Below, one piece after another: positions 5,456 to 41,257 of a DNA stretch of 42,863 bases. The stretch is taken from positions 1-42,863 of the forward strand of contig ONSU01000019.1 of assembly GCA_900320545.1 (NCBI GenBank), in the 5' to 3' direction. The first letter of the stretch is position 1; each line of letters begins with the position of its first letter. Under the pieces are notes generated by a model. It did not search any database. It was not told the DNA's origin and worked only from the letters and a program-made list of their open reading frames with translations. The translations under genes were made by a program, and so were the position numbers. The DNA comes from an uncultured Bacteroidales bacterium (lineage in GTDB: Bacteria; Bacteroidota; Bacteroidia; Bacteroidales; UBA932).

Positions 5456-5624
5456 AAATTTGTTGTATCAGTTCCTAAAACTTCCGGTGCTTCGCACCTC
5501 CATCCCTCCCAGATCACCCCAAAAATCAAAGATTTTCGGGGACCCCGGAATCCACGCACTGTGGGCCCCTCCCGTTCACGAGGCCACGGGCGGCCACGGT
5601 TTTATCCACTGATACAACAAATTT
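5456..5624. repeat. structured GC-rich repeat element, copy A
   Basis: A 169-bp element between ffh and a divergent lipoprotein gene. Its ends are a perfect 16-bp inverted repeat, AAATTTGTTGTATCAG (5456-5471) and CTGATACAACAAATTT (5609-5624). Inside, in plus-strand order, are a GGTGC-TTC-GCACC hairpin, TCCATCCCTCCC, a second hairpin (CCCC...AAAATC-AAA-GATTTT...GGGG), then GGGCCCCTCCC and the hairpin core GGCC-ACGGGC-GGCC. Copy B (7018-7145) has the same order of parts with different arm sequences. No protein is convincingly encoded. The function is unknown; it could be a non-coding RNA, an mRNA leader structure, or a small non-autonomous repeat. Confidence 0.7.
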
Positions 5625-5626
5625 AT
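5619..5626 (-). promoter_or_regulatory. probable ffh promoter, -7 box TAAATTTG
   Basis: The minus strand reads TTTG (5648-5645), 18 bp, then TAAATTTG, close to the Bacteroidota consensus. Transcription would begin near 5612, inside the right arm of repeat copy A, giving ffh a leader of about 175 nt that contains most of the element. Confidence 0.5.
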
Positions 5627-5683
5627 TGTTTGTAATACATCGAACAAAATTAGCGATTTTGTGGGGAATATGCAAAAATTCGT

Positions 5684-5691
5684 TATATTTG
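5684..5691 (+). promoter_or_regulatory. promoter of the lipoprotein at 5724, -7 box TATATTTG
   Basis: TATATTTG preceded by TTTTG at 5657-5661. It gives a leader of roughly 25-30 nt before the ATG at 5724. Confidence 0.6.
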
Positions 5692-5723
5692 CAATTGTAC
5701 GATAGCCTGACCGGGTAAAGAGA

Positions 5724-6164
5724 ATGAGTATGAAACGATTGATTCGAATCCTCGCCACTCTGGCGATTATCCTTCCGGCTGCAGGGTGTAAAATGGAGGC
5801 CGGTCCTTCCGACGTCAACGATTCCACGGATGAATATACCTTGATTGTATCCGGCTGTGTCGTCGATCAGGAGAATTCCAATCCCCTCCCCGGGATTACC
5901 GTCACGCTTCTCAGCATCGTTCCTTCCAATCCGAATAATCAGAAGACCGCCACGACAACGACGGGCGAGGATGGGTGCTACCTCATTCGCAAACGCTTCA
6001 ATACCCCGGCGTACAACCTGTCTCACGTCTTGCAATGCACCGACGAGAGCGATACCTACAAAGAATCTCTTCAAATGGTGATCACGGTTCACGAAAACAG
6101 TTTCTCCCTCTCCGAGCACGGGTATTTCCTCCCCAATCTCAATTTTGCTTTGAGCAAGAAATAA
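5724..6164 (+). CDS. small lipoprotein with carboxypeptidase-regulatory-like fold
   Basis: 146 residues. A signal peptide ends in LPAAGC (Cys22), so it is a lipoprotein. The rest, LIVSGCVVDQENSNPLPGITVTL...TGEDGCYLI, follows the pattern of carboxypeptidase-regulatory-like (CarboxypepD_reg) beta-sandwich domains, common in Bacteroidota surface proteins. It also resembles, from memory, small lipoproteins annotated next to radical SAM maturases, but no such maturase is visible here. It has its own promoter and stands alone. An alternative start is the ATG two codons later. A strong bidirectional terminator follows. The function is unknown. Confidence 0.75.
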   Translation: MSMKRLIRILATLAIILPAAGCKMEAGPSDVNDSTDEYTLIVSGCVVDQENSNPLPGITVTLLSIVPSNPNNQKTATTTTGEDGCYLIRKRFNTPAYNLSHVLQCTDESDTYKESLQMVITVHENSFSLSEHGYFLPNLNFALSKK

Positions 6165-6196
6165 AAAAACCGGCCTCCTTTCGGGGGCCGGTTTGC
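6165..6196. terminator. bidirectional terminator between lipoprotein and aqpZ
   Basis: Stem AAACCGGCC..CC, loop TTTC, GG.GGCCGGTTT, flanked by an A run on the left and T residues on the right. It lies between two convergent genes and can serve both. Confidence 0.85.
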
Positions 6197-6218
6197 CATT
6201 GAACGGGTCGGGACAAGC

Positions 6219-6917
6219 CTACTTCTCGCACTTCTTGCAGCAGCCGGCAAGGCATTTCCAGACGAGGGCGCTCAGCGCACCGCCGGCGAGCGGGGCCACG
6301 ATGAACACCCAGACATTCTTCAGCGCGTCTCCGCCAGCGAAGAGGGCGGGACCGATGGAACGGGCCGGGTTGACGGAAGTTCCCGTGAGGTTGATGCACA
6401 CGAGGTGGATGAGAATCAGGGTGAGGCCGATGGCCAGACCGGCGGGCTTGCCGGCACCGAGTTTCTCGTCCGTCGTTCCGAGGACCACGAGCACGAAGAG
6501 GAAGGTGGCGATGAACTCGACGAGGAGCGCACCCCAGACACCTCCCGCATTGGCTACGCCGTTGGTGCCGAGACCGGCCATTCCCTGAGCGCCCGCAAAT
6601 TCGGGAGTAACCACCTTGGTGAGGGCGAGCAGCAGCGCACCGGCGATGATACCGCCGATGATCTGGCCGACCCAGTAGCCGCAGGCGTCCTTCCAGCTCA
6701 TACGGCCGGAGAGGGCGACACCGAAGGTGATGGCCGGATTGATGTGGCAGCCGCTGATGCCGCCGATGGTGTAAGCCATCGCGACGACCGAGAGGCCGAA
6801 TGCAATCGCGGTCCCCACGACACCCGCCGTGTCAGCGCAGCCGAGGAACATTGCGGTTCCGCAGCCGAGGAAAGTCAGGACAAAAGTTCCGAGACATTCT
6901 GCAAAATACTTTTTCAT
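6219..6917 (-). CDS. aqpZ: aquaporin Z-like water channel
   Basis: 232 residues with six hydrophobic segments and both half-helix motifs, NPA at 60-62 (HINPAITFG) and NPA at 183-185 (SVNPARS). The narrow filter residues match the water-selective AqpZ pattern: Phe40, His171, Thr180 and Arg186. This favours a water channel over a glycerol facilitator. The start is placed at the ATG at 6917, because the -7 box TATATTTG lies at 6946-6953 and a longer reading from 6959 would begin upstream of the transcription start. The tail CLAGCCKKCEK is unusually Cys-rich. It is monocistronic, with a shared terminator at its 3' end and repeat copy B upstream of its promoter. Confidence 0.95.
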   Translation of the reverse strand: MKKYFAECLGTFVLTFLGCGTAMFLGCADTAGVVGTAIAFGLSVVAMAYTIGGISGCHINPAITFGVALSGRMSWKDACGYWVGQIIGGIIAGALLLALTKVVTPEFAGAQGMAGLGTNGVANAGGVWGALLVEFIATFLFVLVVLGTTDEKLGAGKPAGLAIGLTLILIHLVCINLTGTSVNPARSIGPALFAGGDALKNVWVFIVAPLAGGALSALVWKCLAGCCKKCEK

Positions 6918-6945
6918 TTGTACAAAAGATTTTGGTTTAGCAGTC

Positions 6946-6953
6946 CAAATATA
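6946..6953 (-). promoter_or_regulatory. aqpZ promoter, -7 box TATATTTG
   Basis: The minus strand reads TATATTTGG, matching the Bacteroidota -7 consensus about 29 bp before the chosen ATG. It fixes the aqpZ start at 6917. Confidence 0.6.
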
Positions 6954-7017
6954 CGACATTTTATGAAAAATTGCATCCTTTTTTTTAAGAGTTTTTTATA
7001 AATACGTCGGACGCTCC

Positions 7018-7145
7018 GGAAAGTATGACCTCTGAGAACCCTCCGAACCTTCGGTTCTCCGTCCCTCCCGCTGCGACTCCGTTTTGCGGGCCCCTCCCAT
7101 TCATGTGGCCATGGGCGGCCACAGGTTTCAGAGCCCATACTTTCC
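7018..7145. repeat. structured GC-rich repeat element, copy B
   Basis: A 128-bp second copy, between divergent aqpZ and the gene at 7187. The ends pair as GGAAAGTATG (7018-7027) with CATACTTTCC (7136-7145), continuing inward through CTCTGA and AACC. The first inner hairpin is GAACC-TTC-GGTTC, where copy A has GGTGC-TTC-GCACC: both halves changed together and the TTC loop is kept. TCCGTCCCTCCC, GGGCCCCTCCC, TTCATG and the hairpin GTGGCC-ATGGGC-GGCCAC follow in the same order and strand orientation as in copy A. The middle hairpin is shorter and different. Small reading frames cross it, but none look like real genes. Confidence 0.7.
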
Positions 7146-41170: not shown

Positions 41171-41257
41171 GGTGGGTTGTCCGAGTGGTTGAAGGAGCCT
41201 GCCTCGAAAACAGGTGTACGGGAGACCGTATCGGGGGTTCGAATCCCTCACCCACCG
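41171..41257 (+). tRNA. tRNA-Ser (anticodon CGA)
   Basis: 87 nt. The acceptor stem is GGTGGGT / ACCCACC with discriminator G. The D arm is TCC..GGA, the anticodon loop CTCGAAA (CGA, reading UCG), the long variable arm ACGG-GAGA-CCGT marks a serine tRNA, and the T loop is TTCGAAT. CCA is not encoded. The closing pair of the anticodon stem is C31-A39, a mismatch. Confidence 0.95.

Follow-up and report, generated by a model that had tools for sequence, protein, structure and literature searches.

The window, a stretch of 42,863 nt from an uncultured Bacteroidales bacterium, carries two hairpin units in the spaces between genes. Copy 1 lies between an SRP54/Ffh gene, which runs leftwards from 5437, and a small gene running rightwards from 5724. 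Copy 2 has on its left a major-intrinsic-protein gene (leftwards from 6959) and on its right a gene without a Pfam match (rightwards from 7187). The sole Rfam match of the window is a tRNA gene at 41171-41257. The first-pass annotation, made by a model from the letters alone, had described two structured copies here, and we found both of them by their arms, a shared block and their folding (Table 1). The inverted arms measure 26 nt with 88% complementarity in copy 1 and 18 nt with 89% in copy 2, and a block of 44 nt is common to the two copies with 84% identity. Folding of the minus strand gave z = -4.9 for copy 1 and z = -2.9 for copy 2; among 200 shuffles of each, none folded as well as copy 1 and 2 as well as copy 2. 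The replacement of GGTGC/GCACC by GAACC/GGTTC in the first hairpin, with the loop TTC unchanged, can be read directly from the sequence. A scan of the window with a covariance model at E<=5 returned only copies 1 and 2 (E 5.2e-37 and 3.9e-31, respectively).

Table 1. Positions of the two hairpin units and their parts in the window
Feature	Position	Strand	Basis
Copy 1, whole hairpin unit	5456..5624	folded strand minus	arms, covariance-model match, folding
Copy 1, outer stem P1, 3' arm of folded strand	5456..5481	minus	inverted-arm comparison
Copy 1, outer stem P1, 5' arm of folded strand	5599..5624	minus	inverted-arm comparison
Copy 1, H-type pseudoknot	5571..5598	minus	family covariation; coordinates read from sequence
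Copy 1, pseudoknot alpha strands	5592-5598 and 5579-5585		
Copy 1, pseudoknot beta strands	5586-5590 and 5571-5575		
Copy 1, variable hairpin P3 with CCC/GGG foot	5508..5565	minus	sequence and G212 ortholog
Copy 1, hairpin P4, folded-strand loop GAA	5486..5498	minus	
Copy 2, whole hairpin unit	7018..7145	folded strand minus	arms, covariance-model match, folding
Copy 2, outer stem P1, 3' arm of folded strand	7018..7035	minus	inverted-arm comparison
Copy 2, outer stem P1, 5' arm of folded strand	7128..7145	minus	inverted-arm comparison
Copy 2, H-type pseudoknot	7096..7123	minus	family covariation; coordinates read from sequence
Copy 2, pseudoknot alpha strands	7117-7123 and 7104-7110		
Copy 2, pseudoknot beta strands	7111-7115 and 7096-7100		
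Copy 2, hairpin P3 with CCC/GGG foot	7067..7090	minus	
Copy 2, hairpin P4, folded-strand loop GAA	7045..7057	minus	

A covarying pseudoknot enclosed by self-paired arms

The unit is non-coding, about 115-180 bp long, with one hairpin per copy. Read on the minus strand, it starts with one arm of stem P1, followed by alpha, one base, beta, the alpha partner, a short linker and the beta partner, and it continues with AGGGG, CCC-P3-GGG, AGGGAT, P4 and the second P1 arm; P4 is missing in some lineages, e.g. L031, L037 and L248. The strands of alpha and beta interleave, forming an H-type pseudoknot enclosed by P1. Regarding the GGCC..GGCC hairpin noted initially, the pairing is real but constitutes stem alpha of this pseudoknot.

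Four truncated or rearranged rows (L013, the first hit of L014, L019 and L022) were left out of the alignment and the second site of L008 was skipped; alignment A1 was also made without the duplicated L014 copy and L029, which has an extra hairpin. Later omissions were L080 and L221 (no anchor), L215 (insertion), and L098, L104 and L216 (3' motif missing). In both L029 and L215, each a single copy, the extra hairpin sits inside the pseudoknot loop region. Among 53 distinct cores, and without correction for relatedness, the pseudoknot positions were paired in 95.2% of 629 cells compared with 81.6% in shuffles, 9 of 12 pairs changed on both sides (6.0 in shuffles), 89 cells showed double changes (18.3 in shuffles), and the covariation score was 0.440, versus 0.168 in shuffles and at most 0.098 in slid versions. 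None of 500 shuffles reached those four values; the number of pair types was attained by 11 of the 500. Pairing-preserving change, which the first-pass annotation had seen between two copies, holds at the scale of the family and exceeds both the shuffled and the slid controls.

Stem beta was paired in every cell of the 53 cores (100%), the third alpha pair was unpaired in 22 of 48 cells, and the CCC/GGG foot of P3 was paired in 25 of 25 copies. A quadruplex had been suggested as a possibility for the G-runs of the minus strand; it finds no support, since these runs serve stem beta and the P3 foot and are accounted for by pairing.

As for the outer arms, 88 of 92 5' arms found their best partner in their own element when compared with all of 40 randomly drawn partners. 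In the 77 arm pairs without a common 12-mer we counted 1965 Watson-Crick columns, from 12 to 38 in an element with a median of 25, together with 48 G.T, 27 A.C and 77 other mispairs and 33 gaps; this stricter count was used instead of a looser earlier one (G.T 74, A.C 35), which covered 93 non-independent elements. The arms had been called unrelated yet self-paired. The self-pairing stands, but the arms of the window's own genome form subfamilies with a common inner part, many of them sharing an internal loop, and diverge further out with pairing mostly kept. The ends are indeed unlike those of a normal MITE, with arms common only within subfamilies and no conserved-end behaviour. The element resembles MITEs in being short, non-autonomous and dispersed with inverted ends, and differs from them by its covarying core and by having no common terminal sequence.

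In genome G016, 13 aligned copies have common arms, and eleven of these also share adjoining repeat parts to a varying degree. Two shared-arm copies, L091 and L092, lie in unrelated surroundings, so the unit has spread arms and all. G016 also has copies with near-identical cores and very different arms. Between species, orthologous elements had 518 of 530 aligned core letters identical, compared with 1335 of 1419 in the flanks. On contig C2 of G016 (L105:1470-2400), a cluster of two elements that differ in core type precedes tandem repeats of 74 nt.

Copy number, range and turnover

Using blastn, copy 1 gave many full and partial matches within the window's own genome. We built two covariance models, R1 from 25 copies and R2 from 100 aligned matches. 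R1 gave 38 matches in the own genome at E<=0.01 and 34 at E<=1e-9, with a few fragments among the 38, and G016 has 38 copies too. The search of the own genome and its relatives that the first-pass annotation had proposed therefore yielded a dispersed family with covariation, and not two isolated sites or a set of copies defined by conserved ends. In a sample of 61 genomes the element was present in 32, all among the 37 genomes of the same genus (own included), and R1 found it in none of the 24 from other families. Draws of more than 40 genomes were searched under stricter filters and give lower bounds: matches in 49 of 149 genomes and 11 of 25 genera in the family draw; with R2, 5 of 295 genomes in the order draw (the own genome, one of its own family and one each from three other families); and, also with R2, the own genome alone among 345 in the phylum draw. 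A copy was confirmed in the goat omasum Bacteroidales MAG RGIG2877 (L039). Plasmid and phage collections gave no match at E<=0.1, and an exact-pattern search of viral contigs found none. In G000, G004, G007 and G419 copies stand at the very end of contigs, a hint that short-read assemblies are broken by the family.

No Rfam family matches, in line with the first-pass annotation, which knew of no named family: Rfam covariance models gave no element match in the window or, at E<=5, in three other element loci, the latter showing two weak unrelated matches, both off the element. Titles and abstract openings searched in the literature held no description of it, which is no proof of absence.

The copies are dispersed in extragenic space by simple ORF calls, which also placed 60 loci of two genomes in gene configurations of 16, 18, 12 and 12, with 2 unresolved. 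The same orientation of the two copies, true in the window, does not extend to the family, which is unbiased over these 60 loci. This argues against a leader or riboswitch, and we rejected a riboswitch or cis-acting leader because no consistent orientation upstream of genes was found. Nor was there a replication-strand bias in G016 (16 versus 21 of 37, with 37 of 38 matches scored and a weak GC skew), so a lagging-strand mechanism, which would predict one, is unsupported. No recurrent neighbour gene family stood out among the flanking frames of 74 loci, where clusters, the repeats themselves aside, covered three to four loci at most.

We joined the flanks of 17 elements without the element and searched for them in the close relatives G374 and G212. 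Among 13 element-relative comparisons, copy 1 included, ten had 0-87 nt between the flank matches and the other three 132-187 nt, compared with 155-207 nt in G000. The ten short sites represent nine loci (L044 twice) and lack the element and, mostly, the arms; in the two cleanest cases (L061 compared with G212, L042 with G374) zero nt separate the flanks. R2 at E<=5 detected no element at the 13 relative sites, and one elsewhere in loci L108 and L148. The short site of L044 resembles an arm in both relatives (scores of 19 and 21, at most 12 at the other eight), so deletion is possible there. With this exception, we rejected palindromes present in the target before insertion for most sites, since the short sites lack arms. 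The two copies described at first are real, but they belong to an intergenic dispersed family with copies present or absent from one related species to the next. No target-site duplication was resolved, the flanks being too diverged at the sites compared. In G212, loci L153, L157 and L158 (the sites of L041, L050 and L042) contain 132-187 nt of other sequence, two of them with a similar CTTCC..GGAAGG hairpin; perhaps another repeat family uses the same spots.

Six loci have a clearly orthologous element, and five of them keep its orientation. At L060, compared with G212, the whole unit of 135 bp is inverted in place, with 97% identity on the opposite strand and 85-90% in the nearest flanks. 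L055 has an element in both relatives, with different arms and core, and the core of G212 is reversed. The P3 hairpin of copy 1 is entirely unlike that of its G212 ortholog in almost identical surroundings, which suggests exchange between copies.

Folded strand and molecule type

On the minus strand, the excess of G.T over A.C mispairs in P1 is modest (p = 0.02), the pseudoknot has 11 G.T and 2 A.C, and the pair adjoining the P3 foot is A-U in 13, G-U in 11 and G-C in 1 of 25 copies. Both the G.T excess and the tolerance of G-U indicate that it is the minus strand that folds, in line with the single-stranded structure (RNA or DNA) proposed at first.

We also looked at the triloops of the folded strand, which are of the GNA type in 28 of 45 cases in P3 (75 distinct segments) and 31 of 37 in P4 (51 distinct segments). 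Altogether, 59 of 82 triloops are GNA and 58 of those 59 are closed by C-G, as raw counts uncorrected for descent and with no significance test attached. As a control, the perfect triloop hairpins of 30 stretches of G016 comprised 68 GNA and 71 TNC among 818. The middle base of the GNA loops can be A, C, G or T, so more than one inherited loop is involved, though the elements are related. RNA versions of GNA minihairpin loops are less stable. For DNA minihairpins, unusual stability is described where the GNA loop contains a sheared G-A pair (PMC6479982). The mispair asymmetry and the c(GNA)g loops suggest that the element acts through one of its strands, perhaps in the form of single-stranded DNA. 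The first-pass annotation had left RNA and single-stranded DNA side by side; the loop statistics lean to DNA, so that single-stranded DNA is favoured over RNA, rather than proven, and the choice is not settled by them.

A proposed mobile hairpin and its alternatives

We read these observations, with moderate confidence, as a family of non-autonomous mobile hairpins recognised by their folded core. One strand would become single-stranded and fold, and the element would move in that form; a putative enzyme encoded elsewhere would recognise the folded core, and the ends would be set by the base of the hairpin instead of a fixed terminal sequence. The P1 arms would mainly need to pair with each other and enclose the conserved core of pseudoknot, G-rich junction, P3 and P4. 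After insertion they would drift, constrained to stay paired, and their self-complementarity would let the unit flip in place. Among the points that count against the mobile-hairpin reading, replication-strand bias is absent, the P1 asymmetry is modest, the loop count is uncorrected for descent, L044 may represent a deletion, and palindrome correction could account for part of the P1 pairing. Furthermore, paralogous arms are so different while orthologous copies change little, and we found no mobilising enzyme with Y1_Tnp, a RAYT-like profile or the neighbouring frames. Pfam Y1_Tnp occurs in 38 of 61 genomes, weakly in the own genus, and we rejected an IS200/IS605 (Y1) partner because its presence does not track the copy number of the element.

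A bolder form of this reading, which we hold tentatively and consider possible, is an 'inside-out' mobile element, whose identity and mobility would reside in a folded single-stranded DNA pseudoknot core, with an enzyme reading the shape of the hairpin base. In integron attC sites, structure is conserved more than sequence and one strand of the hairpin is active. The element would share with them this structure-led conservation and single active strand, but its core is highly conserved in sequence. REPINs, as described in PMC3116915, are doublets of REP sequences that form hairpins and are associated with RAYT transposases. According to the same source, they are short, non-coding, extragenic and dispersed, show compensatory changes and are proposed to be mobilised as whole units by way of a single-stranded form (PMC3116915); our element shares the structural traits and would move likewise, and a hairpin is also predicted in its single-stranded form. 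In that description (PMC3116915) the ends of REPINs are conserved, the spacer varies and RAYT genes lie next to them, whereas the element has a conserved middle and variable ends and no RAYT link was found for it. By analogy, it resembles REPINs built inside-out, and of the known systems compared REPINs come closest in behaviour.

Among the alternatives, the one that survives best, although we consider it rather unlikely, is that the working form is a structured RNA produced from the folded strand: a small RNA present in many copies, or else a mobile RNA or a ribozyme. P1 would serve to release or protect this RNA, for instance as an RNase III substrate. The covariation of pseudoknot and hairpins, the G-U tolerance of one strand and the greater conservation of the core than of the flanks between species would all fit an RNA. 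However, an Rfam match is absent, orientation to genes is random and the triloops are of the GNA type and not GNRA tetraloops. Also, by inspection, the flanks outside the arms have no conserved sequence, so no promoter seems to travel with the units. Among the candidate RNAs of a human-microbiome survey are palindromic structures 80-132 bp long that come mostly or only from Bacteroidetes (PMC8040213); they resemble the element by description.

We find it improbable that the element is of the REPIN type, with a Bacteroidetes-type HUH transposase, RAYT (TnpA-REP), acting on it in trans. A RAYT-like profile built from nine Y1_Tnp proteins matched 44 of the 53 genomes searched, and one element of G000 lies 0.8 kb from a RAYT-like gene. 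In addition, atypical structures that recur elsewhere in the genome are reported on the flanks of TnpA-REP subclass 2.6 genes from Bacteroidetes (PMC6006769), a likeness in phylum and in unusual structured repeats with dispersed copies. In that account (PMC6006769), however, the structures flank the transposase gene, which our element does not in the loci searched; the comparison is one of descriptions. Moreover, G013, G046 and G065 have elements without a RAYT-like match, while G009, G010 and G047 have the match without the element; R1 and R2 gave no convincing element beside 21 RAYT-like loci (one weak R1 match, E 0.27, at L190), and 15 other loci yielded only the one mentioned in G000. Several of the loci inspected have their own, different repeats, and the element, with its conserved middle and variable ends, reverses the layout of a REPIN. 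With neither co-occurrence nor convincing flanking copies in the genomes and loci searched, we rejected a RAYT partner.

The RAYT-like loci have arrangements of their own. In L194 (G000 contig C47), the RAYT-like Y1 gene at 1417-2277 is bordered on both sides, at about 842-1149 and 2276-2397, by arrays of a separate repeat of roughly 52 nt, which the model search did not relate to the element. Elsewhere in the genus, RAYT-like genes come with palindromes of other kinds. In L306 (G000 contig C42), a RAYT-like gene has a matching AAAGGCCTTACTC palindrome on each side, in inverted repeats at 1399-1432 and 2497-2528, a REP-like arrangement.

Neutral palindrome dynamics, in which one arm serves to correct its partner through template switching or inversion and the fold is unselected, seem very unlikely to explain the family. 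In their favour, the arms exceed in length and perfection what a small RNA would require, one unit is inverted in place, and such palindrome correction could partly maintain the pairing of P1. Hairpin correction would not yield covariation in the interleaved stems of the pseudoknot, though, and the core changes less than the flanks and the mispairs favour one strand. Equally doubtful is a role in regulating the adjacent genes, as a leader, a terminator or an invertible switch: on the folded strand both copies of the window head towards a start codon, one ortholog is inverted and some arms have A and T tracts, but the gene configurations of the 60 loci are mixed, copies are missing at orthologous loci, and known invertible promoters have repeats common between loci, whereas the element shares its middle.

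Turning back to the mobile hairpin, if this reading is true, the element would be an uncatalogued mobile repeat across a family in Bacteroidales, with up to about 40 matches per genome, and a search keyed on conserved ends would miss such an element. If the inside-out form is also true, the ends would hold nearly no sequence information beyond their mutual complementarity, and the transposition or recombination system would be unlike the known HUH, DDE or integron systems. A covarying pseudoknot in a mobile hairpin would offer a testable case in which the shape of a nucleic acid, and not its end sequence, marks the unit.
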